A stretch of DNA of 33,337 bases. It comes from a virus. This document shows positions 13,401 through 31,656 of the stretch, one piece after another (the first letter of the stretch is position 1; every line of letters begins with the position of its first letter). The stretch is from IMG/VR virus record IMGVR_UViG_3300006854_000039, positions 1 to 33,337 of that record; one strand, written 5' to 3'. Below the pieces are notes generated by a model that saw only the letters and a program-made list of their open reading frames with translations, made no database searches and was not told where the DNA came from. Position numbers and translations under genes: made by a program.

Positions 13401-13552
13401 TGAGCGATTCTCAGTTTACGAATGTCGAATGTAACTGGAGCAAAGAGGGTCGAATTTTTATTCGGGATGTCGATCCGATACCACTTTCCATCCTGGCTGT
13501 TATTCCGGCTGGACTGACAGCCGCTAAAGTTCCTTACTCGCAAAGGGTCTAA
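10451..13552 (+). CDS. Tail tubular protein B (nozzle, T7 gp12-like), enlarged
   Basis: A 1033-residue nozzle protein, longer than T7 gp12 (about 800). The first 60 residues (SFSGGEISPPLYARTDL and GARTLRNMICMRHGGATRRPG) are diagnostic. Residues about 108-182 look like the small FCCH-type beta domain often seen in phage tail proteins, with GITQANPAVVTTVVPHAF, NGDFILITGV and TTFEL. Residues about 255-350 look like a fibronectin type III-like insert (FYRVTAIMANGDEG, then AVSYRVYKYD). The rest of the body has family-like segments such as AWTRHDF and VRYIERLS. A further insert lies at about 655-860. ATG 10451 directly follows the previous stop. These inserts probably project from the nozzle surface. 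Confidence 0.92.
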   Translation: MPAQNIIERSFSGGEISPPLYARTDLVKYATGARTLRNMICMRHGGATRRPGSMYVGTTLNGGNSVRLIPFIFDETSNGQSYVLEFGNQYVTFWQNGANIIQSSVQISGITQANPAVVTTVVPHAFANGDFILITGVVGMLEINNRYFIVNNVTPTTFELKDLSGNNFDSTTFTAYVSGGLANKILRVSTPYLQADLSTLDFAQSADVLTITHQNYAPRDLVRNGPLFWNLNLVTFDGTGGEGFPIVTAGGTLTAPPQPGTFYRVTAIMANGDEGVVDPTHSSGGNIVASTANPIVLTWGPVANAVSYRVYKYDLSANFVPSTVVFGFIGNTTDTTFSDSGISPNYEDSPPISGALKSLVASGQYPANVGYVQQRRIFSNVPNNPVGAWASATGSNTNFTVKTPITDEQSFDFNVAGDEVNSIEHILELKSMLVMTAGAELFVQGNGSGVVTPTSINASVQSQYGSSKLRPIKAGDVVLFNQALGSFIRDLSFDFVIDGYRGNDLTVFSSHLFEGHEIADWSYQKTPDSILWAVRDDGILLSLTYVREQQIVAWTRHDFDNGSGGNFLSPPSIVENVVAIPENGDYAVYLCIKRTINGSDVRYIERLSSRIWSDVIDARYLDCHASYDGRNVSSMTMSPTTDSSQLFVEEEISDGIAFTEPSAANTQLLGIVPPGVYTVSALATAVGVAMTAAGTQVYTGSVTGGGLIEITCSGGGSFTLDFSSLSAYFSRSIASLIGYNPTVHSATGFIDGDFQPTSLFATGAAAYQQSLVLTSSGAFFDASMVGNQIFIQDGLWNLSHGQLGNQVRFTITGFTNSTTVTVLPDKPVPASLQTPLTSWARAVSTISGLSYLQGLQVSVWADRFVVASPLNRSMAVMTVPSSGILTLDKQYSVIFVGLPIVSDLETLAIDTAFGESIADQPKAISRVVVSLYNSRGFFGGTENPDTNIDNPISANTGLNDPLFGLIENKAQDDRRYYDPAPNLLSDSQFTNVECNWSKEGRIFIRDVDPIPLSILAVIPAGLTAAKVPYSQRV

Positions 13553-15919: not shown

Positions 15920-18900
15920 TGGGCGCTCTTTTAGACCAACTCTCCGATACTTCTGATGAGCAGAAATCTCAAGGCCAACTCGGACAGCTTTTAAACCAAG
16001 ACGAATCTGAGCCGGCGCGCGCATCGATTCGACTCTCCAAAGACATCAAGCCGGATCAGGCTGCAAAAGTATTGGACCTCTCGGATCAGACCGGGTTTCC
16101 CACAGATTTTGTATCTCGGAACGTAGAATCACTTGAGCGCCAACGCACTCAGGAAGTCGTCACGCCAAAATTCACAGACGACCATCCGATCGTGTCATCA
16201 TGGCTGGGGCGGGATCCGCATCACGCAGCTTTGGCCCTTTCCGACATTCCTATTCTTGGCACGATGGAACGACAGTTTTCCTACCTCTCAAATCAGGCCG
16301 AGCGCGGCTTCTATGATCTTCATAATTCGTATCTAAAAATGAAGGAATATTCTGGCATAGCAACGCCAGATGATATCCGAGCTCGCCAACAGATCGAGAA
16401 GCGATTGCAGTTTGATTTGAACAAAGAAGCGCCGGGAACCATATCGAAGCTCTTTGGCAAGGCAGTTGAGACTGGACCCCAAATAGTTGGCATTACGGCC
16501 TTGTCGGCGCTTGGCGCGCAGATGAGTATTCCGGCCGGTCTTACGGCTGGTGTCAGTTTTGCGGCAATGGCTGCCGGCGACGCCTATACGGACTACCGGG
16601 ACCGCGGGATACCCGAAGGCGAGGCTAGAAACTGGGCAACGGCGGTTGGCGTTATCAATGGTGTTGCGGCTGGTTATGGCGCCAACGTTATTGAGAAGAT
16701 CCCTGGCTTGCGACTTTTGACAAAAGAATCGATCGCTTCCAATCCGGCCATGAGAACAGCACTTGCTAAATATATTGTCGGCATTGGCGAGTCCGGCATA
16801 ACCATGGGAAGTTTTAGTGGTATCCAGAGTCTTGTTCAAAATGGCCTTGGGAATGTCGCGCAGATACCCCCTGACGCATCACCCGCTGCGATTCTAGGCA
16901 CTATTTTCAGTAAAGAGAACATCCGGAAGGCCGCAGAGGCCGCGGGCGGCGGATTGGTCACAGGATTTATGGTCGGCGGCGGTTTGGGAGCCTGGGGCAT
17001 ATGGAAAGATTTCGGTCGTTCTAATGAAGCTTTGAACACGGAAAAAGCCTGGAATAACGTTGGAACTATTCTTCAAAACGCCAAAATACAAGAAATGGCG
17101 CCAGAGCAAGTTCAGAAATTGGTCAAGCAAATGACCAAGGATGGTCAGGTCTATGTCCCGCTCGAGCATTGGCAAACGTATTGGGAAGGCCAAAAGCTTG
17201 ATCCGCGCAAGGTTTTTGAGAGCTTGACCGGCAATACAGCGTCTTATGACGAGTCAATGCGTACTGGCGCCGATATCCAGGTTCCGATGTCAGATTACGC
17301 GAAAATTGCCGCATCGGAAGAACATTCAAAGCAATTTAACGAAGTGATTCGTAATTCTCCTGATGCCATGAATTCCAAAGAGGCAAAGGATTTTTTGGGC
17401 CAAAAGACCCCTGAACAAGAAGCTTCTGAAAAAATAGCTGGTGAAATCTCTCCGCAGGAAAATGTTCCACGCGGAACAATCCAAGAAGAAAATACCCAAA
17501 AGAACCAAGTTGAACAGCAGTTAGCAGCTACCGAATCGGAACTCGGTCACAAGCCACTTTTTGAAGATCTCAAATCTGTTGGCATGTCTGATGAGCAAGC
17601 GGCGCGTTATTCTCAAGCCATTGAAAAGGCCCGCGGCGCCGCCCAGGAGGATTTGACGCGCCGGATGACAGATATCGCTTTGCGAAAAAAGACAGCCGAA
17701 TATCGGGAAGAACGCCGGCAAGTAGAGCAAGAAGTTACTCAAGAAATTGATGGAAGAAAAGATCAAATCGCATTGACAGCATTGCAAAAAGGAGTTCTTC
17801 CTAACGATACCGAATTCCCAATAAAACTGTCGAAAGAAGCTATTAAGCGTGATTTTCCTGAAGTCGACACCTCTAAATTGCCGCGCGGCATATCTGTAGG
17901 AAAGCAAAGGGCGACTTCCGATGAGGTCATGTCATATGCGGAAGAATTGAGAAAAAGCGATATAACACGGCATGAATATGATATCCGTAGCTATGGCATT
18001 TTCCGCGAAGTCATTGGCAAGGGAATTTCTCTCCGGGGAAGCGAAGATTTAGCCAACGAATACAAAACGTTTGAGGCTTGGAAAAAGAATAAGTCTGGCC
18101 GGCCGCTCGATGAGGTGATTGATGAATTACGCGATCGCGGCGTTATTGGAGAAAACCAGGATCCAATCCAGGCGATTCGTGACATAAAAGCTCCTAAAAA
18201 GCCCGGAGCTGTTTCAAATTACCTTGAGCGCGCGCGTTATGATCTTGAGAAGGAGCGCGCTGATATGGAGGGCGCGCATCCGGATCAGGTAGCGCCATTG
18301 CTCGGTTATCAATCAGGGTCACATCTTTTACATGACTTAACAACTATGCCGAAGCGCGAGGAGTTGATCGCTAGCGAAATCGACAGGCGCATGGTTGAGC
18401 GCCGGCCGGACATAACTTCGGCTACAAATTTACCGGAAGAAACAATAAAAGCTCTTCACAATGAACACCGCGCAAAACTATTGCGCGCCGAGCTGGAACA
18501 TCTGGCTTCCCAAGATTTTGCTGTTACAAAAGGGCTTATTCGCGCGATTGCCCGCAGAGTGCCTTCAAATGAAGAGGTTCGCATGGAGGCCGATAGTTTA
18601 ATTGGCAACCGGACCTACAATGCTCTAAATCAAAATCTTTACTTGACGGCTGAGCGTATGGCTCGCAATGAGGCGGCAAACTTTTTCACCCAGGGAAATT
18701 TTGAGAAAGCTTTTGAGGCCAAGCAGAGAGAGCTTTTGAATTTTGAGATGTTTCGCGCTGCACAAAAGGCTAAAGAGACAATCGATAAAGGCTTGGATTT
18801 CCAACGCGCTTTCGATAAAAAATCTGTTCGTGATCGCTTGGCCCAGGCTTCTCGTGGTGGCGGAGAATGGCTGGATCAAATCGATGCGTTTCGAGAGCGT

Positions 18901-21261
18901 TTCGACTTCCGAAAATCTGTGAGTATGGAAGAGGCTATGAACCGAAAGAGCCTCCTCGAATTTATCGAACAACAAAAGCGAACTGGCAATCCGCTGGATC
19001 TACCGCAAGACATCTCTAACCCTGATTATCGACCATCGTGGAAAAGCATGACTGTCGACCAGCTTTACGATGTTTTTGGGACTCTTAAGCAGATGAAAAC
19101 CATGGCCTATAACGAGGGCCGGATGCTGGCCGATGAACGTCAGCGGTCATTTAATGAAGTGAAAGAAACGGTTTTTCAGGGATTAGAGAAGCATTTCGGT
19201 CCTCCGAAACCGCCAAAATGGGATTTCCACCCTGATTTTAAGGACTGGGGTGCAGATAAGATTTCCTGGTTCAATTCCTGGCGAACGCGGCCGGAGTTCT
19301 TTTTTCGCTGGATGGATGGCGGAGAGTATCACGGTCCCGTCTGGGAAACATTTATGAAGCCGATGAACGATGCGGAGAATTTCAAAACACAGCATCAGCG
19401 CGTCGCTGTTGAGAAACTCAACGAAATATTTAACGACTACTCCGTTCCTGAACGCGCGAAATTTTATTCGAAATTAGACTTCGTTCCTGAAATTCAAAAA
19501 TCCATGAACAAGATGGAAATGATGATGACCGTCTTGCATTGGGGCAATGACGGTAATCGTTCAGAATTGATGCGCGGTTATGGGTGGAATGAAGCCCAGG
19601 TCCGCGCAATCTGGAATCATCTCGACGCCAAGGATTTTAAGGCCATAAATAAAATTTGGGAATTGATTGAATCGTTCTGGCCACAAATCAAGCAACAGGA
19701 AATTGACCTCAAGGGCGTTGTGCCTGAGAAGGTCGATGCTTCTCCATTCAAAGTAACTGCTAGGGATGGCAAAGAAATCGCTATGGCCGGCGGGTATTTC
19801 CCATTGATCTATGACAGAAAAATTGGATGGAAGGCGGGTAATTTTAACGAATCAGAGGACGTGAACGCTCTGTTCGGAACAAATGCTGGCAGAGCAATGA
19901 CCAAGCATGGATGGACCAAAGAGCGTGTTGGCGGCGGAGGATTGCCGCCCTCTTTGCAGATGACGACTCTGATGAACCACGTCTCCGATGTGATCCATGA
20001 TCTCTCTTATAGAAAGCCCATTATCGATTTGTACAAGATGATTAACGATCCGGATGTCCGCGATCGTATAAGTTCCGCGGCTGGCAAAAATATGTATGAA
20101 CAGCTCAATCCATGGTTGAAACGTACAGCCGGCGATCGACCGTGGGCACCCATGGGTCCGCTTGAGGCTCTTTCAAAATTGCAACAAGGGATGACTATGG
20201 CGGAACTCGGCTTCAATTTTGCTGCCGCTTTAAACGACATCCCATCTTATATAACCGCTTCACGCTCTCTTGGTCCGAAATATGCTTTAAGCGGATTGCG
20301 CGACTCTGCAAATATTTTTAAAGCCTGGGAATTCGTCAAAGAGAATTCTGAATTTATGAGAGCGCGTCCGGATAATTTTGATCGCGACTGGAGGGCGACT
20401 GGCAGAAATCTGAATATTGCTGGCGTTGCTCCCGGTCCATTGAGCTATATCGAAACCATGAGCCCCATAAAGAGAGCCACTTTCAAGGCTGTTTCTCAGG
20501 CAACCGATCTTTGCGTGGCTATTCCAACGTGGCTTGGAGCTTATAGAAAAGCTTTGGAAGGCGATGTAAAAAATGTTCCGGAAAACAATCATCAAATGGC
20601 GGTGGAGTACGCTGATAATTTGGTTCGAGATATCAAAGGTTCCGGCGCTGCGAAAGACATGGCGGCGATACAGTCTGCTGGTGGTCAGCTCGGGCGTCTC
20701 TTTACGATGTTCTATAGTCAGGTAAACGTAATCGATAATCAGTTAATGATGGCTGGTCGTCAGGCCGCCATAGATAAAGATATTCCCAAGTTTGTCGCAA
20801 CAATGATGGCGGTTTGGTTTATTCCTGGTCCACTGGTTGAATCCATTATGGGCCACACTAAAAAAGAGGATGAGAGTACTCCGGAATGGCTGGCTAAGAC
20901 GGAATTGCTTTACCCATTGCGAATGGTTCCGGGCTTAAGAGAATTTGCAAATTATCTGGAAAATAAAAAAGCCGTTGAGATTACTCCAGTCAATAGGGCC
21001 GTGGAAACCATTTTTAAAACAGCCGGCAACATCCTTGGAAGCACCCCTGGAATTAAAGAACTTGTTGGAGAAAAAGAGGAATGGAAGGATAGCGATTACC
21101 GCGATGCTGTTATGGCGACAGGCTATCTGACTGGTTTACCAACAAGACAACCGCTTAAAACCATGTCTTACCTTCACGATTGGATGAATGGTGACGAGCA
21201 ACCCGATTCCCTTGGTGAAGGTATTTACCGCGCGATGGTAGGAAGGAAGCGTAGGGGTTGA
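15919..21261 (+). CDS. Giant internal virion (ejection) protein, T7 gp16 position
   Basis: At 1780 residues this is the largest gene in the window. It sits where T7-like phages encode gp16, the protein that enters the host envelope and drives DNA entry. Its start is a GTG overlapping the previous stop. The N-terminal 80 residues include AAKVLDLSDQTGFPTDFVSRN, a pattern common to such proteins. Small-residue hydrophobic segments lie at about 188-219, 239-258 and 342-360 and could enter membranes. The middle is charged helix. Near the C-terminus GQLGRLFTMFYSQVN and a hydrophobic MMAVWFIPGPLVESIMG recall large ejection proteins. I see no lytic transglycosylase motif, unlike T7 gp16 whose N-terminus has one. 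Confidence 0.78.
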   Translation: MGALLDQLSDTSDEQKSQGQLGQLLNQDESEPARASIRLSKDIKPDQAAKVLDLSDQTGFPTDFVSRNVESLERQRTQEVVTPKFTDDHPIVSSWLGRDPHHAALALSDIPILGTMERQFSYLSNQAERGFYDLHNSYLKMKEYSGIATPDDIRARQQIEKRLQFDLNKEAPGTISKLFGKAVETGPQIVGITALSALGAQMSIPAGLTAGVSFAAMAAGDAYTDYRDRGIPEGEARNWATAVGVINGVAAGYGANVIEKIPGLRLLTKESIASNPAMRTALAKYIVGIGESGITMGSFSGIQSLVQNGLGNVAQIPPDASPAAILGTIFSKENIRKAAEAAGGGLVTGFMVGGGLGAWGIWKDFGRSNEALNTEKAWNNVGTILQNAKIQEMAPEQVQKLVKQMTKDGQVYVPLEHWQTYWEGQKLDPRKVFESLTGNTASYDESMRTGADIQVPMSDYAKIAASEEHSKQFNEVIRNSPDAMNSKEAKDFLGQKTPEQEASEKIAGEISPQENVPRGTIQEENTQKNQVEQQLAATESELGHKPLFEDLKSVGMSDEQAARYSQAIEKARGAAQEDLTRRMTDIALRKKTAEYREERRQVEQEVTQEIDGRKDQIALTALQKGVLPNDTEFPIKLSKEAIKRDFPEVDTSKLPRGISVGKQRATSDEVMSYAEELRKSDITRHEYDIRSYGIFREVIGKGISLRGSEDLANEYKTFEAWKKNKSGRPLDEVIDELRDRGVIGENQDPIQAIRDIKAPKKPGAVSNYLERARYDLEKERADMEGAHPDQVAPLLGYQSGSHLLHDLTTMPKREELIASEIDRRMVERRPDITSATNLPEETIKALHNEHRAKLLRAELEHLASQDFAVTKGLIRAIARRVPSNEEVRMEADSLIGNRTYNALNQNLYLTAERMARNEAANFFTQGNFEKAFEAKQRELLNFEMFRAAQKAKETIDKGLDFQRAFDKKSVRDRLAQASRGGGEWLDQIDAFRERFDFRKSVSMEEAMNRKSLLEFIEQQKRTGNPLDLPQDISNPDYRPSWKSMTVDQLYDVFGTLKQMKTMAYNEGRMLADERQRSFNEVKETVFQGLEKHFGPPKPPKWDFHPDFKDWGADKISWFNSWRTRPEFFFRWMDGGEYHGPVWETFMKPMNDAENFKTQHQRVAVEKLNEIFNDYSVPERAKFYSKLDFVPEIQKSMNKMEMMMTVLHWGNDGNRSELMRGYGWNEAQVRAIWNHLDAKDFKAINKIWELIESFWPQIKQQEIDLKGVVPEKVDASPFKVTARDGKEIAMAGGYFPLIYDRKIGWKAGNFNESEDVNALFGTNAGRAMTKHGWTKERVGGGGLPPSLQMTTLMNHVSDVIHDLSYRKPIIDLYKMINDPDVRDRISSAAGKNMYEQLNPWLKRTAGDRPWAPMGPLEALSKLQQGMTMAELGFNFAAALNDIPSYITASRSLGPKYALSGLRDSANIFKAWEFVKENSEFMRARPDNFDRDWRATGRNLNIAGVAPGPLSYIETMSPIKRATFKAVSQATDLCVAIPTWLGAYRKALEGDVKNVPENNHQMAVEYADNLVRDIKGSGAAKDMAAIQSAGGQLGRLFTMFYSQVNVIDNQLMMAGRQAAIDKDIPKFVATMMAVWFIPGPLVESIMGHTKKEDESTPEWLAKTELLYPLRMVPGLREFANYLENKKAVEITPVNRAVETIFKTAGNILGSTPGIKELVGEKEEWKDSDYRDAVMATGYLTGLPTRQPLKTMSYLHDWMNGDEQPDSLGEGIYRAMVGRKRRG

Positions 21262-21286: not shown

Positions 21287-21312
21287 AGTTGAAATAAGCC
21301 GTCAGTCATGGG

Positions 21313-21342
21313 CCGTGCAGGGCTTCTTCTGCGCGGTTTTTT
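21313..21342 (+). terminator. Intrinsic terminator between ejection and fibre genes
   Basis: CCGTGCAG at 21313-21320 pairs with CTGCGCGG at 21329-21336 (one G-T pair, eight-base loop), followed by six T at 21337-21342 and then ATTT. This is a textbook intrinsic terminator. It ends five bases before ATG 21347 of the fibre adaptor, so it could also hide or weaken that gene's translation start. Confidence 0.75.
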
Positions 21343-21346
21343 ATTT

Positions 21347-21841
21347 ATGACTCTCGCCGTCGCCACTCCGGTCGTCAGTTATGTCGGGACTGGGACATCC
21401 AATGCCTTCCCATTCTCTTTTCCGGTTTTTTCTTCCAGCCATCTTGTAGTCTCAATTCGATCCGCTGATTTATCGACAAACTATGTCCTCACTCTAAACA
21501 CAGATTTTACGGTTTCGGGTTTGTCGCCAAACGGAAGCCCAGCACTTCCCGGTACGATCACTCTTGTCAACAGTGGTCAAGCATGGCTTAGTGGAGGATT
21601 CCTTATAACTGGATACACCATTACCATTCAGCGCCTTGTGCCGCTTTCGCAAAATTTATCAGTACGGAATCAGGGAAGTTTTTATCCCGCAAATCTGGAA
21701 GATGCCTATGACTACATCACCATGATTTTGCAGCAACTAAATGTTCCAAATCAAAATCCTGTCTATACCGACATTGTTACTGGCGCCACTTATCAAATAG
21801 TTTTTGTTGATGGCGTTTTATCTAGCCAAAGGCTTACATGA
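21347..21841 (+). CDS. Tail fibre adaptor, T7 gp17 N-terminal-like, cytoplasmic
   Basis: A 164-residue protein that resembles only the virion-binding domain of T7-type tail fibres: VSYVGTGTSNAFPFSFPVF at about 10-28 and then DFTVSGLSP, followed by ITIQRLVPLSQ and a helix with LEDAYDYITMILQQL. In T7 this domain is the first part of a 553-residue fibre; here the protein ends soon after it. It has no signal peptide. A longer frame from ATG 21308 would add 13 residues encoded by the terminator hairpin, so ATG 21347 is preferred, although neither start has a good ribosome site. The stop overlaps the ATG of the next gene (ATGA), so the distal fibre is probably the separate protein that follows. Confidence 0.8.
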   Translation: MTLAVATPVVSYVGTGTSNAFPFSFPVFSSSHLVVSIRSADLSTNYVLTLNTDFTVSGLSPNGSPALPGTITLVNSGQAWLSGGFLITGYTITIQRLVPLSQNLSVRNQGSFYPANLEDAYDYITMILQQLNVPNQNPVYTDIVTGATYQIVFVDGVLSSQRLT

Positions 21842-23655
21842 AGAAATTACTTTTTGCCATGGTCGCTCTCTTCGGATTGTCGGTGCGATCGGAAGCTTTC
21901 CCCATTGTCGGATATGTTCAAATTACCACTGGTGCTGTACAGTCTGGCGGGTTTAGCACTCAGACAGGAAAAGTCCAGAGCCTTACCGTTAGCGGTTTAT
22001 CGCCGAATCAATGTGTCCAGACAACGACTGGCGGCCTTCTGGCTACTACTGGCGCGCAATGCAGCGCTGGAGGAGGAGGGGGCGCTTCGAGCCTCAATAT
22101 TTCCAGCGGTTCCGCCTCTGTTCCTATAACGATTAGTTCTCCCACTGTAAAAGTAATTGTCGATTCCAATACTTTCGTCGGATCGCTTGTTAATGCCGCC
22201 ACGGTTTTTCTTACGCTGAATCCATCTAGCGCGACGCTGCAAGGCAACACATTTAATTCAAGCAATCAGTTAGTCAAGCTCGATTCTTCGAGCCGTCTGC
22301 CGGCGCCAAATGGAATCACTCTGGCTGCTGTTGCCGGTCTTTCCGCATCTACGTTTACTTTCACTGGAGATACAAATAGCTGGATGTTCGGGAAAAACGG
22401 ATCCATCTATGGCGGTCCAACAGCCGGTAATCAGACGGGCCAATTTCAAACTTGTTTTGGGAATAACGTTTGCGCCAATCCCGGTGTATCAAACATAGGA
22501 ATTGGTTTTTTTGCGCTGTCGAGCACTTCTGGTTCCAGTGGAAACGATATTGCAATCGGGGAACAAGCTTTAGGCCAATCGAGTCTTTCTGCTGGCGAAA
22601 ACATTGCCATAGGTCACAATGCTATGGCTAGCGGCATTGGGCCGAGCATGGCAAACAATGTTGCTATTGGTCAGGGCGCTCTCCGGCACTTAGCAAGTTA
22701 TGGAGAGTGCGTTGCTATCGGGCAAAATGCCTTAACTGCCAATACCAGCGGATTTGAGAACATTGCTATCGGCATCAATTCTCTGACAGCTAATACTACT
22801 GGCTGGAGGAATATAGCCGTTGGTAATTTTTCCTTAACCAATAACGTTTCGGGAATTTCTAATACAGCAGTTGGAGATCAGGCCGGTGGCAATGTTACAA
22901 ATGCCGCAACCATTCCTAATCCAGCATCTCAGACCATGACTTTTTTGGGCTCTCAGACCGGGGTCATTTCTTCGCAGACTGTATTGAATGATGGCATGGC
23001 ATTGGGAAATCTAGCGCGCGTGGGATGTTCTGATTGTGCTTCACTCGGAAACGCTACCCTTACAGGCAATTATCGAGTTGGTATAGGCACCACTACGCCG
23101 GCTGCAAATTTGACAGTTATAGGGAATAGCCAGCAGTTCACGATGGCTGTTGGAACTTCCACAAGTGGTCCTTTTCTTCTATCCGTTTCATCTTCTGGCC
23201 CGGTTGCCATAGCTGGTGCAACAACGATTCAGGGCGCTGTTCCTCTTTTATCGACATCTACGCTTCAATCTGGAACCACATTTTTTGTTTCCAGTGGTAC
23301 GGTTTCAGGATCATTTTTGGTGACAGGAAATTCTGTTCTTGGCGGAATTGTTGACACTGCTCACTTTAACACGCGCGGATCAGTTCCCAGTCTTTCTTCC
23401 TGTGGCGCTACTCCCGCAATAACTACTGGATCTACTGATGTCTCGGGGCAAATAACGGAAGGGACTGGTAGCCCAACTGGGTGTACGGTAACATTTGCGA
23501 GCGCCTGGACAAATGCTCCATTCTGCGTTGTTCAGACGACATCAACTGTTACCACGGCAACAGTTTCTTCGACTACGAACTCGCAATTTTCTATCACGAC
23601 ATCTGTGCCGATTCCATCGAACACGATCACGTATCATTGCATTGGAAGAGATTAG
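21838..23655 (+). CDS. Exported fibre protein with YadA-like head repeats
   Basis: A 605-residue protein with an apparent Sec signal peptide: MKK, hydrophobic core to residue 14, cleavage after SEA at 20. A Gly-rich linker lies at 76-84. Residues about 218-350 hold tandem units of the form NIAIGxxAL...NTxGxxN (for example ENIAIGHNAM, ECVAIGQNAL, FENIAIGINSL), like the left-handed beta-roll of trimeric adhesins. YRVGIGTTTPAANLTV at about 412-427 is a familiar fibre motif. The last 95 residues form a domain with four cysteines (SSCG, TGCTV, FCVV, YHCIG) that I recall from phage and bacterial surface proteins. Eleven cysteines in the mature part suit an oxidising compartment. It is coupled by ATGA to the adaptor. 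It is probably a distal fibre or adhesin. Confidence 0.8.
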   Translation: MKKLLFAMVALFGLSVRSEAFPIVGYVQITTGAVQSGGFSTQTGKVQSLTVSGLSPNQCVQTTTGGLLATTGAQCSAGGGGGASSLNISSGSASVPITISSPTVKVIVDSNTFVGSLVNAATVFLTLNPSSATLQGNTFNSSNQLVKLDSSSRLPAPNGITLAAVAGLSASTFTFTGDTNSWMFGKNGSIYGGPTAGNQTGQFQTCFGNNVCANPGVSNIGIGFFALSSTSGSSGNDIAIGEQALGQSSLSAGENIAIGHNAMASGIGPSMANNVAIGQGALRHLASYGECVAIGQNALTANTSGFENIAIGINSLTANTTGWRNIAVGNFSLTNNVSGISNTAVGDQAGGNVTNAATIPNPASQTMTFLGSQTGVISSQTVLNDGMALGNLARVGCSDCASLGNATLTGNYRVGIGTTTPAANLTVIGNSQQFTMAVGTSTSGPFLLSVSSSGPVAIAGATTIQGAVPLLSTSTLQSGTTFFVSSGTVSGSFLVTGNSVLGGIVDTAHFNTRGSVPSLSSCGATPAITTGSTDVSGQITEGTGSPTGCTVTFASAWTNAPFCVVQTTSTVTTATVSSTTNSQFSITTSVPIPSNTITYHCIGRD

Positions 23656-23663
23656 GAGGTAGC

Positions 23664-23786
23664 ATGAAAAAAATAGCGTTGCTGTCATTGGTTGTTTTTC
23701 TGGTTTCCGCGATGCAAGTCTTGGCCGCAAAAGATAAAGGCGAACAAGGGCATCCATCGAAACAAAAGACAAGCACATACGAATAA
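23664..23786 (+). CDS. Tiny secreted peptide, unknown function
   Basis: A 40-residue frame with a strong AGGAGGT site at 23654-23660 just before ATG 23664. Residues 1-21 form a clear signal peptide (MKK, then LLSLVVFLV, cleavage after VLA). The mature part would be only about 19 residues, very polar and basic (starts AKDKGEQ, ends TSTYE), with no cysteine. It lies between two other exported genes on the same strand. It could be a periplasmic cofactor of fibre assembly, a secreted signal or a plug. Nothing in the sequence fixes the role. The strong ribosome site argues that it is translated. Confidence 0.65.
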   Translation: MKKIALLSLVVFLVSAMQVLAAKDKGEQGHPSKQKTSTYE

Positions 23787-23789
23787 ATT

Positions 23790-23805
23790 TGGCGAGGACT
23801 CGCCA
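23790..23805 (+). promoter_or_regulatory. Compact hairpin upstream of a ribosome site
   Basis: TGGCGA at 23790-23795 and TCGCCA at 23800-23805 pair perfectly around a four-base GGAC loop, six bases before the AGGAG site (23811-23815) of the next exported gene. No T-run follows, so it is not a terminator. It may stabilise or regulate the message for the small exported proteins. Confidence 0.5.
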
Positions 23806-23821
23806 TAAAAAGGAGACTTAA

Positions 23822-24316
23822 ATGAAAAAGTGGTTCGCGCTGTTTGGTTTGCTGTTGGGATTGTCGTCTATGGTTTATGCCGGTACGCCCCAAGAAAACT
23901 TCTATGTTGGTCAGGCGCCGCTATCGAATACGAGCCTCTGGACAAGCACGGCTTCGACGAACGCAAGCTCCAACTTGACGCTGGCTGTTGCGCCCGCGGC
24001 TGGTGCTGGGGCTACTGCCAGTCAATGCCGCGTCTGTGCGACAAAGTTCATCATCCAGATTCCAACGACTACTGTTGTGAGCATTTTGGATGGTGGAACC
24101 ACCAACTACACAATCTTTGGTGTTGGGCTTGGAACGAGCAGTGTGAGCACGCTTGTTCTTCCAGAAGATCATCTCGGCCCGCTCTGTGCATCTACCGGAA
24201 ATACCATGAATATCAACTTGGTTAATACCGCCGGCCTATCAACCACTCCGCAAGCCTTTAACTTTGAAGGCTATACGACTTGTGGCGGTACAGCGAACAA
24301 GGGGCCGATGCAATAA
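23822..24316 (+). CDS. Small exported beta-rich protein with four cysteines
   Basis: A 164-residue protein with a signal peptide: MKKW, a core of FALFGLLLGL, cleavage after VYA at 20. The mature protein is rich in Thr, Ser, Gly and Ala, and has four cysteines, CRVC close together, then one in PLCAS and one in TTCGG, which could form two disulfides. It looks like an all-beta domain (FIIQIPTTTVVSILDGGTTNYTIF) similar in style to fibre tips or small coat-like domains. AGGAG lies at 23811-23815. It belongs to the run of six exported genes. No family is recognised with certainty. It may be a tip or decoration subunit of an exported fibre. Confidence 0.7.
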   Translation: MKKWFALFGLLLGLSSMVYAGTPQENFYVGQAPLSNTSLWTSTASTNASSNLTLAVAPAAGAGATASQCRVCATKFIIQIPTTTVVSILDGGTTNYTIFGVGLGTSSVSTLVLPEDHLGPLCASTGNTMNINLVNTAGLSTTPQAFNFEGYTTCGGTANKGPMQ

Positions 24317-24340
24317 ATAAACGATCCCTGGGAGAATAAA

Positions 24341-24802
24341 ATGAAGAAATTCATCGCAAGGTTTATCTTGATCGCGGGATGTGCGGTTTTCTGGTTTCCT
24401 TTAACCGCGTATTCCGCTGGACCGATAAATCCTTCGTATACCTATCAGGTGGCGGTAAGTTCGATAACGACGGCGGTTGTAACTGTGTCGACGACTGTTG
24501 GCACTAAAATGGACAATCCGCAGTTGTCGAATCGCGCTGTCATTGAAATCGATAATATCGATTCAACGGCGAATTTGTGGTGCTTGCCAGTAAGCAGCTC
24601 TACGCCGGTCGCATTATCGACGACATCTGGTAGAAAAATTCTCCCAGGGAGTTCGTGGATTCTCAATCTGTTTGACACTTTATACACGGTGAGTTATTCG
24701 TCAATAACGAACACGACTACAAACGTGGCTGTTACGGCGAATCTCTGGTGTATATCGGACGGCGGAGCATCTACGAAAGCTGCTGTGACCCAGGCATATT
24801 AA
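24341..24802 (+). CDS. Small exported beta-rich protein with NLWC pair
   Basis: A 153-residue protein with an N-terminal hydrophobic segment (MKKFIAR, then core to about 22) and a probable cleavage after YSA at 26. An IAGC lipobox-like match at 11-14 is probably too close to the start for a lipoprotein signal, so ordinary Sec export is favoured. The mature protein carries two similar strands, TANLWCLPVSS and TANLWCISDGG, whose cysteines could pair, and ILPGSSWILNL between them. This layout resembles small beta-sandwich proteins found with phage fibres. GGGAG lies 10 bases before ATG 24341. The function is unknown, but it is part of the exported cluster. Confidence 0.7.
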   Translation: MKKFIARFILIAGCAVFWFPLTAYSAGPINPSYTYQVAVSSITTAVVTVSTTVGTKMDNPQLSNRAVIEIDNIDSTANLWCLPVSSSTPVALSTTSGRKILPGSSWILNLFDTLYTVSYSSITNTTTNVAVTANLWCISDGGASTKAAVTQAY

Positions 24803-24803
24803 A

Positions 24804-26573
24804 ATGAAAAAATCACTTATCGCACTTCTTCTTTTTCCGTCTTTTGTTTTTGCGGATAGCAGCCTCATTGGTGGAACTGGGGGCGGGGGTAGTGCCGGTG
24901 GTGGGTCGACAAATGGATCGATCGTCGCTTCTCCGACAAATCAGGTCCCGCGATACTCTGGTGCTGGATCCACTACAACCCTTACCGGAGCCGCAAATCT
25001 CACAAATGATGGAACCACGGTGGCGGTTATTGGAAGTGGCGGCCTTACGACTACTTTTGGCGTGTCGGCCGGAAGTATTACGGTTTCCACAAACAGCACC
25101 ATCGCGGGTTCGACATTCACGTTTCAGAACAACGGGCTCTTAAAGATAGGTCAGATCAACTGGTTTGATGGGACAATACAGGTATCGAGTCCTTCCGCAA
25201 GTGGATCTAATTTACTTCCAAGCACGAATACCTGGACCGGCGGTAATACCCATACCTCATCCACAACGTTTAATGGCGCGGTTGTAATTTCTACGAGCAT
25301 CAACGCTGGCGGACAAGGAACCAGCGGTCAATTTCTGAAGTCCAATGGACCCGGCGCCGCGGTGAGCTGGGGCACGGCTTCAGGATCTGGCGATGCGGTC
25401 CTGGCTGCGACGCAGACCTTTACCGGCCAGAACAACTGGACCACGCCGGCGATCAGCACTTTCTCTTTTGGTCTAGCCGTTGGGAGTTTGACTATTACCG
25501 GCTCCGGAACTACCGGAGCGTCATGGCAAGCCAAGCAGGGGACTGGTCCTTCGAGTACGCCGCAAACCGGCTATAGCACGATGTGGGCGGATTCTTCGAG
25601 TGGGACCCTCGTATTTGTTGATGGAACCTCTGTTGCGACGACGACTGTGGTTGGGACTACAAGCACCATCACAGTGGGGAATTTTGTCAAGTATGGAGCT
25701 CTGGGGAAATTGATTGATGGCGGATCATCTTCTGGCGGAACGCCCGGAGGTTCGTCGCCTCAATGGCAATATAATCAGAGTGGTTCTTTTGCTGGTGTTG
25801 CTCCCGTAACGATCAACCAAGCAAGTATCACGCTTTCTTCTACGCATACCATTGTGCTGGCATCGGCTACTGCTGGAGGAAGCACGTACACACTTCCCGC
25901 GGCTTCTAACACAGGTCAGATTTTGCAGATCACAAAGGTCGACGCAACGACCAATACGATCACGGTAGTTTCCGCGGGAACCGATCTTATAGCGGGAACC
26001 ACCGCAACGCTTATTCTCAACGCGATTGGTCAAACAGACGAGATAACGGCTGGCGCTTCGGGATGGTGGCCGCATGGTCAAGGGCTTCAGGTTACGCCCG
26101 CAAGGATAAGCCTTCCGAATATGACGGAATCAAATGGATTCCAGGTTGGCTCGTCAAGTAGTATGCTTGCAATTCCTATTCAAATTCCAGTTCCTGTAGC
26201 CGTTACGGGATTTGCCTGGGCAGCCGGTGCAGCCAACACGGTTGCGTTTGGAATAAACGATCGGAATGGAAATGTGCTTGTCAGCACCAATGGAATTGTG
26301 CAAGCAGGAAGTGGTACTCTCCAGGCAACGTTTACGCCTAAAAATCTTCCTCCGGGGCAATATTACGTTACAGTTCTCATCAAGGAAACAACTGCTAACA
26401 CAATGGATGGTGGTAGTAATAATAACAGCGGCGGCATCCTTGGATGTAGCATCCAGCAATTTGGTGGTGCCACTACAATTCAATCTTTTACCCCGCCGAT
26501 GGCCGCGGTTTGTTCGTCTGTTCCGGCAGTTCAAGTCTTAGTTTCCGGAGGAAATTCGCAAACGTTTAAATGA
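24804..26573 (+). CDS. Exported long fibre protein, Gly/Ser/Thr-rich
   Basis: A 589-residue protein starting one base after the previous stop. The signal peptide is short and clear: MKK, IALLLFPSF, cleavage after VFA at 17. A glycine-rich linker follows at about 22-38. The body is a beta-repetitive, Thr/Ser-rich fibre: GGQGTSGQFLKSNGPGAAVSWG at about 170-191 is a motif common in phage tail fibres, and SSPQWQYNQSGSFAG and TYTLPAASNTGQILQITKVD are likewise typical. The C-terminal 160 residues form a separate domain with TESNGFQVGSSSSMLAIPI and a closing GCSIQQFGG and VCSSVP with two cysteines. It looks like a tail fibre by pattern, yet is addressed for export, which is unusual. Confidence 0.8.
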   Translation: MKKSLIALLLFPSFVFADSSLIGGTGGGGSAGGGSTNGSIVASPTNQVPRYSGAGSTTTLTGAANLTNDGTTVAVIGSGGLTTTFGVSAGSITVSTNSTIAGSTFTFQNNGLLKIGQINWFDGTIQVSSPSASGSNLLPSTNTWTGGNTHTSSTTFNGAVVISTSINAGGQGTSGQFLKSNGPGAAVSWGTASGSGDAVLAATQTFTGQNNWTTPAISTFSFGLAVGSLTITGSGTTGASWQAKQGTGPSSTPQTGYSTMWADSSSGTLVFVDGTSVATTTVVGTTSTITVGNFVKYGALGKLIDGGSSSGGTPGGSSPQWQYNQSGSFAGVAPVTINQASITLSSTHTIVLASATAGGSTYTLPAASNTGQILQITKVDATTNTITVVSAGTDLIAGTTATLILNAIGQTDEITAGASGWWPHGQGLQVTPARISLPNMTESNGFQVGSSSSMLAIPIQIPVPVAVTGFAWAAGAANTVAFGINDRNGNVLVSTNGIVQAGSGTLQATFTPKNLPPGQYYVTVLIKETTANTMDGGSNNNSGGILGCSIQQFGGATTIQSFTPPMAAVCSSVPAVQVLVSGGNSQTFK

Positions 26574-26576
26574 TCC

Positions 26577-28685
26577 ATGAAGAAACTAGCCTCAGTTTTA
26601 ATCGTTTTGCTGGCTCAATATTCATGGGCCGTTCCTCCAGTTGTTACTCCTTCCACTCCAACTGTTTATGTGAGCTCATGTACAACTCTTACCTCTAATC
26701 AAAATGTCACATTCAGCCTTACTTCCGGAAGCACCGGAACGTTAACAGGCGCAACAGCCAACACGGTGTCGTATTGCGCCCCGGGTCCCCTTGTCGCCAA
26801 AAACGTTTGGCTGGGATGCCCGCAGGGTCCCCAGGATTCCGTATATAACACGCGGATCGATGCTTTGCCTGTTCAGGTCAGCAGCACCAATTACTTGCGA
26901 GCCCAAGCAGGGAGCGCCAACATCGCACTAGAAGTCGATTTGCCGGAAAATCGTTACACTACGGCAACCGCTTCAACCAGTTTGATCTTCGCCAATTCCG
27001 GCATCAACGGATATTACAAGACCCTACCTTTCCCAGATATGCGCGTGGAGAACGGCTTTTTTACGGACTCTCAGAGAGTCGATCAGCACATCTTGGGCAT
27101 GATTACCGACACCTGTCAGGCCTCTGAACTCTACAAGCTCTATCCCATTGGCTATGTGGGCTCAGGATCTTGCTCCATATGTAATTCCGGATCAGGCGTT
27201 GTTTATCCCAATGACTACATGATGCCGCAGGGTGTGGATGCCGCCGGGATGCCGATAGCGCGCCTCGCGCTTCGGTACAGCGAATTGAGGGATTGCATTA
27301 ACTCGGGTGGCGCAAAGCCCATCAAGCACGCTCTAAGAATGACGGCTTCTATTGGCATCCTTTCTAACCACCACATCTGGCCCGCTGTAGCAGAGGCCAC
27401 TGATGGCGGACAACTTCCATTTGGAGCAAGGGGAAGATTGGTTTCTACATTCACGGTGACGGGCTCCATGGGCGCTCAGTGCATCCAGACCGCGCTTAAA
27501 AATTACGGATTTTTTTTCAATGATGGCGGCATCAACGGGCACATCCAATCGATGCAAGATGTGGTTGCCGATTCCGACACATTCGTGATGGTCACTCAGG
27601 AGCTTTTGGGGATTTCGACTCTAAAACTAAATAATGTTGATATCGTTGACGAATCAAGCCTGATGATTAATTCTCTGAGCAGCCAGGTCAACCCTACCAA
27701 TGGATTTGTAACGCCCGAAAGCTTTGCGTTTGTTATCGCCTCTAATACGGCAACGCATGAATTTTCCACGATGACTGTTATCGTGCAGCCAGTGACGATC
27801 GGAACGGCCCAGCGCACGGGCTATTCCTTTATGGCCGGGACTCCGGCGCAGCAACTTGATGTCTGGGTAAATGGTTCTACGGATACAGTGTTTACGTGTT
27901 CGATGAGCCCTACGGTTGGGAGTCTGACTTCAGGAGGTTCTTACACAGCGCCGACCTCTGTGGTATCCAGGTCCAGTACAACTGTGACCTGTTCATCACG
28001 CATGGATTCCAATACATCGGTGTCATTTCCGGTGGTGGTTTATTCCAGTAGTGCAATCCGCGAAAGGCTTAGTACGGTGACGTTCGCGGATTACGGACCA
28101 GATGTAAATGGTAACACTTGGTTTTCTGACTACTCTTCTCTCTATCGATTTCAGGGCAGCGCGAACTGTGATTTCACAGGAGATCCCTGGTCAGGCGTGA
28201 CAGATGCTGATCTCTATAAACATTGCGAGTACGTTAACAGTGGATCGGGCGATCAATACTATCGGTTCTTTGTTCCGAACGGAACATATCGGATTCAGCT
28301 TCGTTATGCCATTGGTGGCGGTAGCCCTTTCACATCTGGCACATGGCAGGAAGCCATTGACTCCCAGGGCTCAGTCTTTTCTTCCAGTCCATCTACGACT
28401 ACGCTGGCCGGAGATGGCCCCTGGACACAGCAGGGCATTACAGGAAAGTATTTTGATCTTTGCACTCTTATTCCAGGGTGCGCCCAGCAGACCCCAGCTT
28501 CTATCACGTTCAGTAAAACAGTCACAAATAATCAACTTTATTTTTCGATCCGGCATCTGGCTCCGGTTGTCGTTAGCCAACCCGCAAGCGTTTTAACCGC
28601 TTTTTCGATCGAGGCATCTACAGCTTCTTTTTCATCAGTGAATTTTGGACAACAATCAATGTTTGGAACTGGGTCATTTAAATGA
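26577..28685 (+). CDS. Exported cysteine-rich adhesin with malectin-like C-terminus
   Basis: A 702-residue protein with a signal peptide (MKK, core SVLIVLLA, cleavage after SWA at 18) and 14 cysteines. After an Ig-like stretch (20-65) comes a large domain, about 70-350, that I recognise from secreted bacterial proteins of unknown function: DSVYNTRIDALPV, then VDQHILGMITDTCQASELY, AAGMPIARLALRYSEL, KHALRMT, HHIWPA, GARGRLVSTF, ALKNYGFFFNDGG and IVDESSLM. A second Ig-like segment follows at about 410-490 (GGSYTAPTSVV). Residues about 495-690 resemble malectin-type carbohydrate-binding domains (YYRFFVPNGTYRIQLRYAI). Function is probably glycan binding at the cell surface. The gene is coupled to the next by ATGA. 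It may be of bacterial origin. Confidence 0.78.
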   Translation: MKKLASVLIVLLAQYSWAVPPVVTPSTPTVYVSSCTTLTSNQNVTFSLTSGSTGTLTGATANTVSYCAPGPLVAKNVWLGCPQGPQDSVYNTRIDALPVQVSSTNYLRAQAGSANIALEVDLPENRYTTATASTSLIFANSGINGYYKTLPFPDMRVENGFFTDSQRVDQHILGMITDTCQASELYKLYPIGYVGSGSCSICNSGSGVVYPNDYMMPQGVDAAGMPIARLALRYSELRDCINSGGAKPIKHALRMTASIGILSNHHIWPAVAEATDGGQLPFGARGRLVSTFTVTGSMGAQCIQTALKNYGFFFNDGGINGHIQSMQDVVADSDTFVMVTQELLGISTLKLNNVDIVDESSLMINSLSSQVNPTNGFVTPESFAFVIASNTATHEFSTMTVIVQPVTIGTAQRTGYSFMAGTPAQQLDVWVNGSTDTVFTCSMSPTVGSLTSGGSYTAPTSVVSRSSTTVTCSSRMDSNTSVSFPVVVYSSSAIRERLSTVTFADYGPDVNGNTWFSDYSSLYRFQGSANCDFTGDPWSGVTDADLYKHCEYVNSGSGDQYYRFFVPNGTYRIQLRYAIGGGSPFTSGTWQEAIDSQGSVFSSSPSTTTLAGDGPWTQQGITGKYFDLCTLIPGCAQQTPASITFSKTVTNNQLYFSIRHLAPVVVSQPASVLTAFSIEASTASFSSVNFGQQSMFGTGSFK

Positions 28686-29008
28686 ACGACGACCACAGAC
28701 GGCGACTCACCGATAGCGGGGTGCTGCGCTGGATACCCCTGTGGCCTGTGTTTACTGGCCTTGTCATGGCTTGCGTGGCGGTGGGGGGATACATCGCGAC
28801 CATCAAGTACATCGCCCTGGACAACAAGATGCTTCACGACGATCTGAAGAGCATCCACCAGTGGATCAACTTGAGAGAGTCCTGGGAATCCGACAAGAGC
28901 GGAATATTGGAAAAGATCGTCGCGATTCAGGAGAGCCAGGAGAAGCGCATGAAACGCTTGGAGGATCATGAAGATGAAAACCGATCCTGGTTCAAGCACA
29001 GACCGTGA
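28682..29008 (+). CDS. Membrane-anchored coiled-coil protein, lysis module
   Basis: A 108-residue protein with one membrane helix at about 20-43 (PVFTGLVMACVAVGGYIATI) and a charged coiled-coil-like C-terminal half rich in Glu, Lys and Ser. It starts on an ATG that overlaps the adhesin stop (ATGA), so it is co-translated with the exported fibre module and begins the lysis genes. The shape, cytoplasmic N-terminus, one helix and helical tail, resembles inner-membrane spanins, but no partner lipoprotein is visible on this strand. It could also be a holin accessory or a membrane anchor for an exported fibre. The family is not recognised. Confidence 0.68.
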   Translation: MNDDHRRRLTDSGVLRWIPLWPVFTGLVMACVAVGGYIATIKYIALDNKMLHDDLKSIHQWINLRESWESDKSGILEKIVAIQESQEKRMKRLEDHEDENRSWFKHRP

Positions 29009-29195
29009 CCGGAAGTGGCCGATTGATAAGTTATGCCCGAGGTGTCTGCTTATGGACATCAAGAGTCAATGTGAGGCCCAGAAGTGGTATGACGGAGCAT
29101 TTCGATTGACATGCTCGAGCGCATCCTGTTCCTGGTCGCAAGAGTCCGACGCGGACTGGAGCTTAGGACAGCCTATACGGGGTACCAAGGAATGA
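28974..29195 (+). CDS. Small cysteine-rich zinc-ribbon-like protein
   Basis: A 73-residue protein overlapping the preceding gene by 35 bases. Cysteines at 21 and 24 (CPRC) and at 33, 47 and 52 (CSSASC) suggest a zinc ribbon. An upstream in-frame ATG at 28968 is possible, but ATG 28974 has better spacing (nine bases) from GGAGG at 28960-28964. Its TGA overlaps the ATG of the peptidase gene (ATGA), which supports expression. The role is unknown; zinc ribbons in lysis modules are sometimes regulators or enzyme partners. The sequence has no signal peptide. Confidence 0.58.
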   Translation: MKTDPGSSTDRDRKWPIDKLCPRCLLMDIKSQCEAQKWYDGAFRLTCSSASCSWSQESDADWSLGQPIRGTKE

Positions 29196-29686
29196 TTGAA
29201 AACCAGAAGTTAACCGAACACTACACGCTCTACGATTTGACCCGAACCGATCATGCCGATCTCCTGGAAGCTAACCGGCATGTCACAACCGATCAGGTCA
29301 TCAAGCTAATCCAAGTCGCAGAACTCTTCGAGACGGCCTGGCAGCTCCTCAATGTGCCGATCCTGATTTCAAGCGGGTACCGGTGCCCGGCGCTCAATGC
29401 CGCCGTGGGCTCTTCGATGCGGAGCCAACATCTATTGTGTGAGGCCGGAGACGGCGTTCCCAAGGGTATGCCAGTCGATGAGGCGTTTCGCATACTCCGG
29501 GCCCGGTCCAAAGAGGGGAAGATCAGGTTCGGTCAGATGATCTGGGAGAAGCAAAACCGGGGGTATGCCAATGGTGCAGTTGAGTGGATACACCTCTCGC
29601 TCGGATTCCCGTACAGAACCTCTGAGCGTTGCGGCCAGATCCTGACCATGGTAGACGGTCATTACGATCTCGTGGAGACGGTATGA
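29192..29686 (+). CDS. Endolysin: M15-type D,D-peptidase
   Basis: A 164-residue protein that resembles M15 zinc peptidases used by phages to cut peptidoglycan cross-bridges. It begins KLTEHYTLYDLTRT (residues 6-19), typical of the family. The zinc site is visible: SGYRCPALNAAVG at 61-73, His80 in SQHLLCEAGD with Asp87, and WIHLS with His134. No signal peptide is present, so it needs a holin to reach the wall. A longer frame starts at 29111 but the extra residues overlap the zinc-ribbon gene in another frame; ATG 29192 is coupled to the upstream stop. This is the only clear wall-degrading enzyme in the window. Confidence 0.85.
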   Translation: MIENQKLTEHYTLYDLTRTDHADLLEANRHVTTDQVIKLIQVAELFETAWQLLNVPILISSGYRCPALNAAVGSSMRSQHLLCEAGDGVPKGMPVDEAFRILRARSKEGKIRFGQMIWEKQNRGYANGAVEWIHLSLGFPYRTSERCGQILTMVDGHYDLVETV

Positions 29687-30083: not shown

Positions 30084-30338
30084 ATGTTAGGCAAGATCGT
30101 GGACTTCTTCGACGGTAAGAAACAAATGATCGCTTCCGCCGGTGCGGCACTAGTCGCGACCGGAACGATCTGCATCAACTTCTCACAGCAGGGCATGGGA
30201 TATCTACTGCACCTGGCGAGTACGCCAGAATTCACGGCGGCAAGCATCGGGTGGGTGGGATTCTTCAATGCCCTGAAAGGCGAGAAGATCAGAAACGAAA
30301 TCGCGGCGGCAACCCCGCCAAAGGAGATCAATCAATGA
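30084..30338 (+). CDS. Holin candidate with two membrane segments
   Basis: An 84-residue protein. The opening KIVDFFDGKKQMIASAGAAL resembles the FLDGKKTYIGA pattern of many small phage membrane proteins found in lysis cassettes. Two hydrophobic segments lie at about 17-34 and 46-63. A charged tail follows, ending KEINQ. This is the shape of a small holin that would let the peptidase out. A GTG at 30039 could extend it by 15 residues, but ATG 30084 has GGAGGG at 30070-30075 at good spacing. The stop overlaps the next ATG (ATGA). Confidence 0.65.
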   Translation: MLGKIVDFFDGKKQMIASAGAALVATGTICINFSQQGMGYLLHLASTPEFTAASIGWVGFFNALKGEKIRNEIAAATPPKEINQ

Positions 30339-30859
30339 AACTTCGGAGCCCGTTGTTCGTTATCATCGTTGCTGTCATGGCGCTGTTCGCCATTGTCATG
30401 GAAGCCAGTCAGGCTCATGCACAACCTCTGGTATGGCAGACAGAGTATGGAACGTTTAACTTCAACCTTGCCACCACTGAGACAGGTCTAGGCTATGACG
30501 CGATCAATAAAAAGACCGTCGCCATCGCTTCGGTGCCTGTCTATACGTTGCCGCACGACATCCTGGCGCTTCAGTTCGGCGTTGATGGAGCATGGCCCAC
30601 TGGTCCAGCGAACCTGATCGAACCCTATGTCGCGGCCGGCCACGACATTCTGAGAGAGATTCCAGTGTTTGCGGATTACAAAAGCGCACATCTGAATGTC
30701 TTTGGGCGACTGGATACCACTAACGGAAGGCCTGGGGTCGGTATTTCTGGGACCTATGCTTTTGGTGGGACTGTTGAGCCTGAACAACCTTTGGCTTCGG
30801 CAGCGCCTGTCATGTCGATAACATCGCGCTTGAGTCTGATTCAGGGTTCATATATCTAA
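30335..30859 (+). CDS. Exported beta-strand-rich protein, possible outer-membrane protein
   Basis: A 174-residue protein with a long signal peptide: MKLRS, a core of about 18 hydrophobic residues, cleavage after AHA at 29. The mature part alternates polar and hydrophobic residues (EYGTFNFNLATTETGLGYD, then ALQFGVDGAWP and LNVFGRLDTTNG, then GVGISGTYAFGG), like a small beta-barrel. An AAGGAG site lies at 30320-30325. Longer frames starting upstream are out of place. It ends three bases into a leftward gene, stop to stop. It could alter the host surface, for example block superinfection, but that is inference. A late position after the lysis genes fits an accessory gene. Confidence 0.66.
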   Translation: MKLRSPLFVIIVAVMALFAIVMEASQAHAQPLVWQTEYGTFNFNLATTETGLGYDAINKKTVAIASVPVYTLPHDILALQFGVDGAWPTGPANLIEPYVAAGHDILREIPVFADYKSAHLNVFGRLDTTNGRPGVGISGTYAFGGTVEPEQPLASAAPVMSITSRLSLIQGSYI

Positions 30860-31320: not shown

Positions 31321-31656
31321 TTAGGCGACGTGAGTGCCTTCAACCTGTCGAGCCTCACGGTCTCTTGTGCGCTTATCAAGCCACAAGAGGGCTTCTTCGA
31401 GCTTCGTGATGGCGATAGCGTTCTCACGGCATTTGAATTTCCCGCCATTGACTATCTGGTAAAACTCGATGCGTTGCAGGGCTGCTGAAATCACAGTCTC
31501 AACGAAAGCGCCATTGGGCTCCTTGCGATCCTCGCCGCGGCCGAGCGGTCCGTTTTGCCATTCGATACTCAGGCCAACCCCATGGACAAAGCCACCGGCA
31601 GGGTTATCGTTCTCATCAACTTTGTTTTCTACGAGACAGTCTTTAATCGCGTTCAT
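31321..31656 (-). CDS. Acb2/Tad1-type hairpin protein (anti-CBASS/anti-Thoeris candidate)
   Basis: A 111-residue protein whose second half matches the small helical-hairpin family often annotated Acb2/Tad1: IEWQNGP at 31-37, then FKCRENAIAITKLEEALLWL at 74-93, with DREARQVEGTH at 99-109. Acb2 and Tad1 proteins are phage sponges that bind the cyclic nucleotide or gcADPR signals of CBASS and Thoeris defence. Whether this branch of the family binds such signals is not shown. The N-terminal 30 residues are extra and specific to this protein. AAGGAG lies five bases before ATG 31656. It is in a leftward operon of small genes, the kind of early region where anti-defence genes are found. Confidence 0.72.
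   Translation of the reverse strand: MNAIKDCLVENKVDENDNPAGGFVHGVGLSIEWQNGPLGRGEDRKEPNGAFVETVISAALQRIEFYQIVNGGKFKCRENAIAITKLEEALLWLDKRTRDREARQVEGTHVA

Follow-up and report, generated by a model that had tools for sequence, protein, structure and literature searches.

Tailed phages are generally understood to produce and assemble their fibres inside the cytoplasm. In the viral DNA analysed here, IMG/VR record IMGVR_UViG_3300006854_000039 (33,337 bases; "the window" denotes this whole stretch), a stand-alone fibre adaptor gene is directly followed by five long genes with predicted export signals, which reach as far as the lysis genes. We consider it reasonably probable that they form the split tail-fibre module of a BPP-1-like podovirus, in which a cytoplasmic adaptor sits on the tail and Sec-exported distal fibres join the virions at or after lysis. 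The 164-amino-acid (aa) adaptor would be made in the cytoplasm and mounted there on the tail. The distal products, fibres and probably enzymes of 605, 164, 153, 589 and 702 aa, come from the same late cluster with predicted cleavable Sec signal peptides; they would cross via Sec, mature in the periplasm or outside the cell, and fold outside the cytoplasm, partly forming disulfides. Their mature N-terminal segments would dock onto virion-borne adaptors as lysis brings the compartments together, or afterwards. Signal-peptide grammar, gene order, adaptor coupling, conservation and recurrence are read directly from the sequence; from these we infer cleavage, location, docking and timing. The module would be a variant of the tail-fibre module and possibly a new mode of virion completion.

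We scored signal peptides with a home-made rule combining n-region charge, the hydrophobic core (h-core) and the -3/-1 site. The strict cut-offs, a score of 10.5, or 9 for the lipoprotein type, plus limits on h-core start and cleavage, were chosen after seeing both the Escherichia coli and the window scores; with them, 13 of 17 exported proteins of E. coli K-12 pass and 0 of 79 others. The initial annotation had pointed to six consecutive genes starting MKK with Sec-type signal peptides, and this was confirmed: all six lie on the plus strand at the coordinates it gave, each starts MKK, and a positive n-region, a hydrophobic core and small -3/-1 residues are found in every one, all passing the rule. 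Of the cleavage sites it had named, YSA of the gene at 24341 is doubtful, as the rule prefers LTA before YSAG. The signals are not confined to these genes, since the seven passing genes among the 40 scored in the window include one at 30335-30859, outside the module. Placing seven genes randomly in 39 positions gives a run of at least six with p of about 5e-5. Among 264 mechanically called open reading frames (ORFs) of at least 40 aa, taken from the longest start, five pass and all belong to the six-gene finding; the genes at 23664 and 30335 were not recovered in that scan because longer starts exist. When residues 2-36 of each of the six genes were shuffled, 2 to 46 passes were obtained per 2000 shuffles.

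The adaptor gene (21347-21841, plus strand) encodes a 164-aa protein without a signal peptide, which matches the N-terminal part of phrog_1640 (E 5e-24) and is 44% identical to the adaptor of the closest relative in our census, locus L029. Its start is probably 21347 and not 21308, because the PHROG match begins at residue 14. The first exported gene (21838-23655, plus; rule score 10.8), with the start MKKLLFAMVALFGLSVRSEA, encodes a candidate fibre of 605 aa matching phrog_4636 (tail spike) and phrog_6002 (virion protein). It is followed by a 40-aa product consisting of a predicted signal peptide and about 19 further residues (23664-23786, plus; 12.2), preceded by a ribosome-site-like AGGAGG. 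The initial annotation had counted all six as fibre-module genes; we retain the five long ones and do not count this product as a fibre, because it has only 40 aa and blastp found no counterpart among the 167 related loci of the census. The next two genes encode predicted exported proteins of 164 aa (23822-24316, plus; 11.42) and 153 aa (24341-24802, plus; 11.7); the latter is probably beta-rich, in a low-confidence model built from two sequences (mean predicted local distance difference test score, pLDDT, 53). A second candidate fibre of 589 aa (24804-26573, plus; 11.68) shows a weak match near its C-terminus to the carbohydrate-binding family Wzt_C (Pfam E 3e-5; 24.3 bits, below the cut-off of 30.4). 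The last exported product (26577-28685, plus; 11.17) has 702 aa, with no PHROG or Pfam match and no blastp relative in the 167 loci. Bacterial proteins similar to its residues 78-376 occur in 3 of 14 genomes from the phylum of the genome that holds census locus L130, a Candidatus Omnitrophota record (best 36%), a possible lead to the host. Its single-sequence model reached a mean pLDDT of only 31; structure predictions of the module yielded nothing usable, and Protein Data Bank sequence searches with the 702-aa and 589-aa proteins returned nothing convincing.

The five long products carry 11, 4, 2, 2 and 14 mature cysteines in gene order, so that the cysteine-bearing character proposed earlier holds for them; the 40-aa product has none. 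For 24 exported proteins the cysteine content is 1.16%, for 11 fibres lacking a signal peptide 0.83% and for 11 other virion proteins of the window 0.48%, and the mature count is even in 17 of the 24 exported proteins (the 40-aa product excluded). As an argument this remains weak.

By its gene content the window phage is a BPP-1-like podovirus, where we place it because it carries, in order, matches to portal (phrog_332), major head (phrog_212) and tail proteins (phrog_394/phrog_376), together with a terminase, an internal virion protein (phrog_418) and a giant Bbp10-like virion protein of 1780 aa (15919-21261, plus; phrog_9880, E 2e-227). The latter is 23-33% identical by tblastn to its counterparts in BPP-1 and others. 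In most annotated relatives the first gene past the giant protein is an adaptor domain fused to a fibre; the exceptions are phage AF, with two short genes between, and Vibrio phage 1.021 and vir555, with a short adaptor. The window lacks the fusion typical of BPP-1-like podoviruses; its adaptor stands alone at 164 aa. The start of the gene at 21838 overlaps the adaptor stop by 4 bp, and the same overlap occurs in L148 and L154, two mutually related loci from Geobacteraceae metagenome-assembled genomes (MAGs); the other gaps inside the module are 1 to 35 bp. We recognised no other fibre gene among the genes scanned, which included six early genes of a second IMG/VR contig of 40,150 bases, IMGVR_UViG_3300007076_000018 (the sister contig).

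Conservation in L029, whose giant protein is 41% identical to that of the window, extends to the export signals. There an adaptor of 166 aa precedes predicted exported proteins of 166, 152, 788, 293 and 964 aa. The first four are orthologs of the window genes at 23822 (42%), 24341 (52%), 21838 (50% over the first 138 aa) and 24804 (46%, distal part), in a different order from the window, and all four signal peptides are intact though the letters have diverged. Between the 21838 product and its ortholog, 78 of the first 150 residues are identical, falling to about 9-16 per 50 thereafter; between the L148 and L154 fibres the figures are 134 of 150, then 59 of 291. The segments just after the signal peptide thus tend to be conserved and the distal parts variable, as in virion-attached receptor-binding proteins.

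To place the module among its relatives, we took a census with the C-terminal part of the giant protein, aligned from five phages, as query against IMG/VR and species genomes; the best 80 loci from each scan and eight annotated phage records gave 167 loci (the sister contig dropped), in 163 of which the giant gene was readable. Strict signal peptides were found in 3 of 671 same-strand genes upstream, as compared with 51 of 1039 same-strand genes within 9 kb downstream. Since many of the downstream hits are short and lysis-lipoprotein-like by eye, we examined large proteins (at least 230 aa; looser cut of 10.0; next five genes; loci with at least 2.5 kb downstream; window excluded). An exported large protein was predicted in 6 of 18 loci with a short adaptor (up to 340 aa), in contrast to 5 of 84 with a long one (Fisher p 0.0036, with the 340-aa cut set after seeing the data, L012 and L038 both being phage AF, and L148, L153 and L154 related). 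Two of the proteins discussed below pass the looser cut only: the spike of L154 (10.27) and a vir555 protein of 241 aa (10.0). The adaptor domain is present in 116 of the 167 loci, and none of these 116 adaptor genes has a signal peptide.

The arrangement is not unique to the window phage but recurs in other, sometimes quite different phages. The search proposed in the initial annotation, for an adaptor followed by exported fibres in related genomes, was answered by L029, L148/L154, vir555, L034 and L092, and the siphovirus-type L203 has a similar arrangement. In vir555 (BK063671) an adaptor of 321 aa and a 133-aa protein, which may be a plain membrane protein, precede predicted exported proteins of 768, 241 and 524 aa. 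L034 has an adaptor of 221 aa; the protein after it (605 aa) bears a lipoprotein-type signal, and its match to Beta_helix narrowly misses the Pfam cut-off. L092 has an adaptor of 215 aa and a 418-aa exported protein. L148 and L154 combine a 245-aa adaptor with an exported fibre and an exported spike, labels given by eye from repeats and position, the fibres having no PHROG match. Homologs of the L148 fibre occur in 5 of 141 genomes of its order; three are MAGs already in the census, and two lie in different phages, L203 and L204. L203 has a siphovirus-type tail, with tape measure phrog_1538 and central fibre J phrog_31, and adjoins what we take to be host housekeeping genes; we read it as a prophage. 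Its tail genes end with a base protein (165 aa), followed by an exported fibre of 354 aa (11.3) and an exported spike of 406 aa (11.9). L204 carries a 119-aa base, a fibre that fails the rule because its hydrophobic run is too long, and, next to it, a spike of 562 aa with a passing score (10.7). The export feature thus accompanies fibre and spike genes that are related to one another but stand behind different tail types.

Single-protein scans of IMG/VR found no relative of the 24804 product, and the sister contig only for the 21308 ORF (the adaptor) and the products at 26577 and 15919; a portal scan returned the sister contig and two short fragments, and a scan with the pair alignment of the 24341 product L029's contig only. 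Against 50,697 phage records, tblastn gave no match for the 24341 and 24804 products or the L148 fibre. The 24804 product had no match either among 294 genomes of the phylum of L117, a negative that the search tool itself rates uninformative.

Export of the distal set is well supported: the signal-peptide grammar is present, diverged orthologs keep it, and other phages show it too. Predicted export is strong, and cleavage, passage through Sec and an extracytoplasmic location would follow from it. The initial annotation had named both joining to the virion and display on the host as outcomes. Of these, joining is favoured because of the gene position, the 4-bp coupling to the adaptor, the proximal conservation combined with distal variability, and the absence, in the genes scanned, of any other recognised fibre gene, which is the strongest argument for it.

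Several observations weigh against this reading. PHROG gives a tail-family match to the 21838 product only, and none to those at 23822, 24341, 24804 and 26577; the 24804 product is conserved distally rather than proximally. The strongest argument is weakened because the scan covered six of the early genes of the sister contig, and because of an insertion in the tail nozzle protein (10451-13552, 1033 aa). This protein has about 110-200 extra residues at about 636-836 compared with BPP-1, AF and Carin1, which could be an added binding domain of the nozzle's own. Moreover, 12 of the 18 loci with a short adaptor lack an exported large protein, which means that fibres can be split without being exported, and export itself is judged from sequence with the home-made rule. 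Finally, the cultured phages BcepC6B, PBR31, AF and AH02 also have a conventional fibre or spike, and the exported protein of each may therefore be something other than a virion fibre.

These cultured phages offer the nearest parallels. Burkholderia phage BcepC6B gp19, Xanthomonas phage PBR31 orf035, and AF_025 and AH02 gp17 of two Pseudomonas phages are, like the window products, fibre-like proteins with an export signal, annotated only as tail fiber, structural or hypothetical. Their genes close the tail genes or separate the tail fibre gene from the lysis genes. Unlike the window, each phage has a single such protein alongside its conventional fibre or spike. gp19 and AF_025 pass the strict rule (both 12.05), orf035 stays below the cut (9.93), and AH02 gp17 shows a signal from an internal start only, judged by eye; the neighbouring AH02 genes belong to another tail type. 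From around residue 217 to its end at 357, gp19 matches the C-termini of ordinary T7-like fibres from phages of Klebsiella, Dickeya and Pectobacterium; the three of these fibres that we checked lack a signal peptide. Fibre tips thus exist in cytoplasmic and exported versions, a point in favour of the split-fibre reading. The modules with bbp9/mtd of BPP-1, gp31 (Dpo31) of Cobetia phage Carin1 and AF_019 of Pseudomonas phage AF agree with the window in gene order as far as the giant protein and in having this adaptor domain beside the lysis genes. In these, the fibre is fused to the adaptor without a signal peptide, whereas in the window the adaptor is alone and the distal proteins carry export signals.

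Filamentous-phage coat proteins are virion proteins exported by the host before assembly; in contrast to the window phage, these phages are non-tailed and assemble at the membrane, with no adaptor and no lysis. Exported endolysins such as Lys44 of phage fOg44 are late tailed-phage proteins with a cleavable signal peptide used by host Sec, according to an excerpt of PMC6116005, and share that signal with the module but are lytic enzymes, not fibres. Lom of phage lambda, described in an excerpt of PMC12309495, is a signal-peptide gene among tail genes that encodes a single host outer-membrane protein expressed in lysogens, unlike the module. Both are examples of tailed phages relying on export signals, in one case for a lysis protein and in the other for an envelope protein. 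Exported fibres are not described in the portions of PMC3338817, PMC3556154 and PMC3974807 covered. The earlier statement that no described system matches holds within a limited search of the open-access literature (subscription papers mostly outside its scope), where we found no description of exported tail fibres.

The main rival is that the exported proteins never join the virion. They would instead cover receptors, either in the periplasm or at the host surface, and so prevent superinfection or keep progeny from being lost on debris; or they would be secreted to bind or degrade polysaccharides at a distance. Masking of receptors during infection is known from some small phage envelope proteins. 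The idea best fits the cultured phages, each with one exported protein beside a conventional fibre or spike, and a fibre-tip domain has been seen in such a protein. It also draws on the TIG and GH123 N-terminal domains in the last gene of L029 (964 aa) and on the weak carbohydrate-binding match of the 24804 product. For the module we find it unlikely, since no other fibre was recognised in the window phage, L029, L148 or L154, so that something must bind the host, and since adaptor coupling and conserved proximal parts are not expected of a free protein.

The hydrophobic N-termini might instead be retained, as inner-membrane anchors or adaptor-docking helices, with assembly cell-bound or cytoplasmic. 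Cleavage in the module is predicted, signal-anchor endolysins keep their signal (in the same excerpt of PMC6116005), and the L204 fibre has its overlong hydrophobic run. We nevertheless judge this improbable, because all six genes have small -1/-3 residues that are kept in the L029 orthologs despite diverged letters, and the adaptor itself lacks a signal peptide. Improbable too is the reading that lysogenic-conversion or host-adhesin cargo lies here by chance between tail and lysis genes. Genes of that kind are known at this place (Lom, in the excerpt of PMC12309495), the 702-aa protein resembles a bacterial one, and a terminator-like hairpin of 13 pairs with a T run (21310-21339, plus) stands immediately before the adaptor start. 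Yet promoter-like sites are no commoner in the region than in shuffles (7 against a mean of 9.3), the coupling to the adaptor is tight, and removing the set would leave a phage without a recognised fibre. Terminator-like sites number 14 against 10.5 expected. An assembly or prediction artefact, suggested by the lack of sister-contig cover at 23232-28045, is largely refuted by 100% identity with that contig over 1-23231 and 28046-33337, by the same kind of layout in L029 and L148/L154, and by the low probability of the run.

Beyond the window, we tentatively propose, as a serious possibility, that some tailed phages, of podovirus and siphovirus types alike, form a class whose virions are completed outside the cytoplasm: particles tipped with adaptors would leave the cell and acquire oxidised fibres and enzymes, exported by Sec, at lysis or later. 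If this is true, one stage of virion assembly would be extracytoplasmic, fibre folding could use disulfides, and within a lysate a particle's fibres could differ from those that its own genome encodes. Fibres held in common by the phages of a lysate would in that case determine host range, with phenotypic mixing between co-lysing phages. The receptor-binding proteins of such phages would be passing for hypothetical or host-like secreted proteins, since no one expects a fibre to carry a signal peptide. The occurrence in cultured BcepC6B and AF, less clearly in PBR31 and AH02, makes the proposal testable now.

Downstream of the module, a gene overlapping the one at 26577 by 4 bp encodes a 108-aa protein with one hydrophobic stretch and no PHROG match (28682-29008, plus), by eye a holin or spanin candidate. 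It is followed by an endolysin candidate with a Peptidase_M15_3 domain (29111-29686, plus). The seventh rule-passing gene (30335-30859, plus) encodes 174 aa without a PHROG or Pfam match, by eye a possible small outer-membrane barrel.

The sister contig ends within the fibre module on both sides of the uncovered stretch, as assembly might give if this stretch differs between strains. It contributes about 11.6 kb of additional early genes, reckoned from alignment coordinates. The six scanned are RecE-like, RecT-like, two helicase-like, an endonuclease and one without a match; neither an integrase nor a fibre is included. Scans with PADLOC, with Rfam and for tRNAs gave no match. In the early region of L006, a 96-aa protein (6474-6764, minus) with no PHROG or Pfam match has a signal-peptide-like start by eye. 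Two related small proteins are encoded at 31321-31656 (minus) of the window and at L006:7620-7949 (minus), which we take to be of the anti-CBASS Acb2/Tad1 type, for which PADLOC gave no match. The former matches phrog_2428 (function unassigned) and Pfam Acb2_Tad1_hairpin (E 1.6e-4, below the Pfam cut-off), and the two copies share 71 bp at 94% identity.

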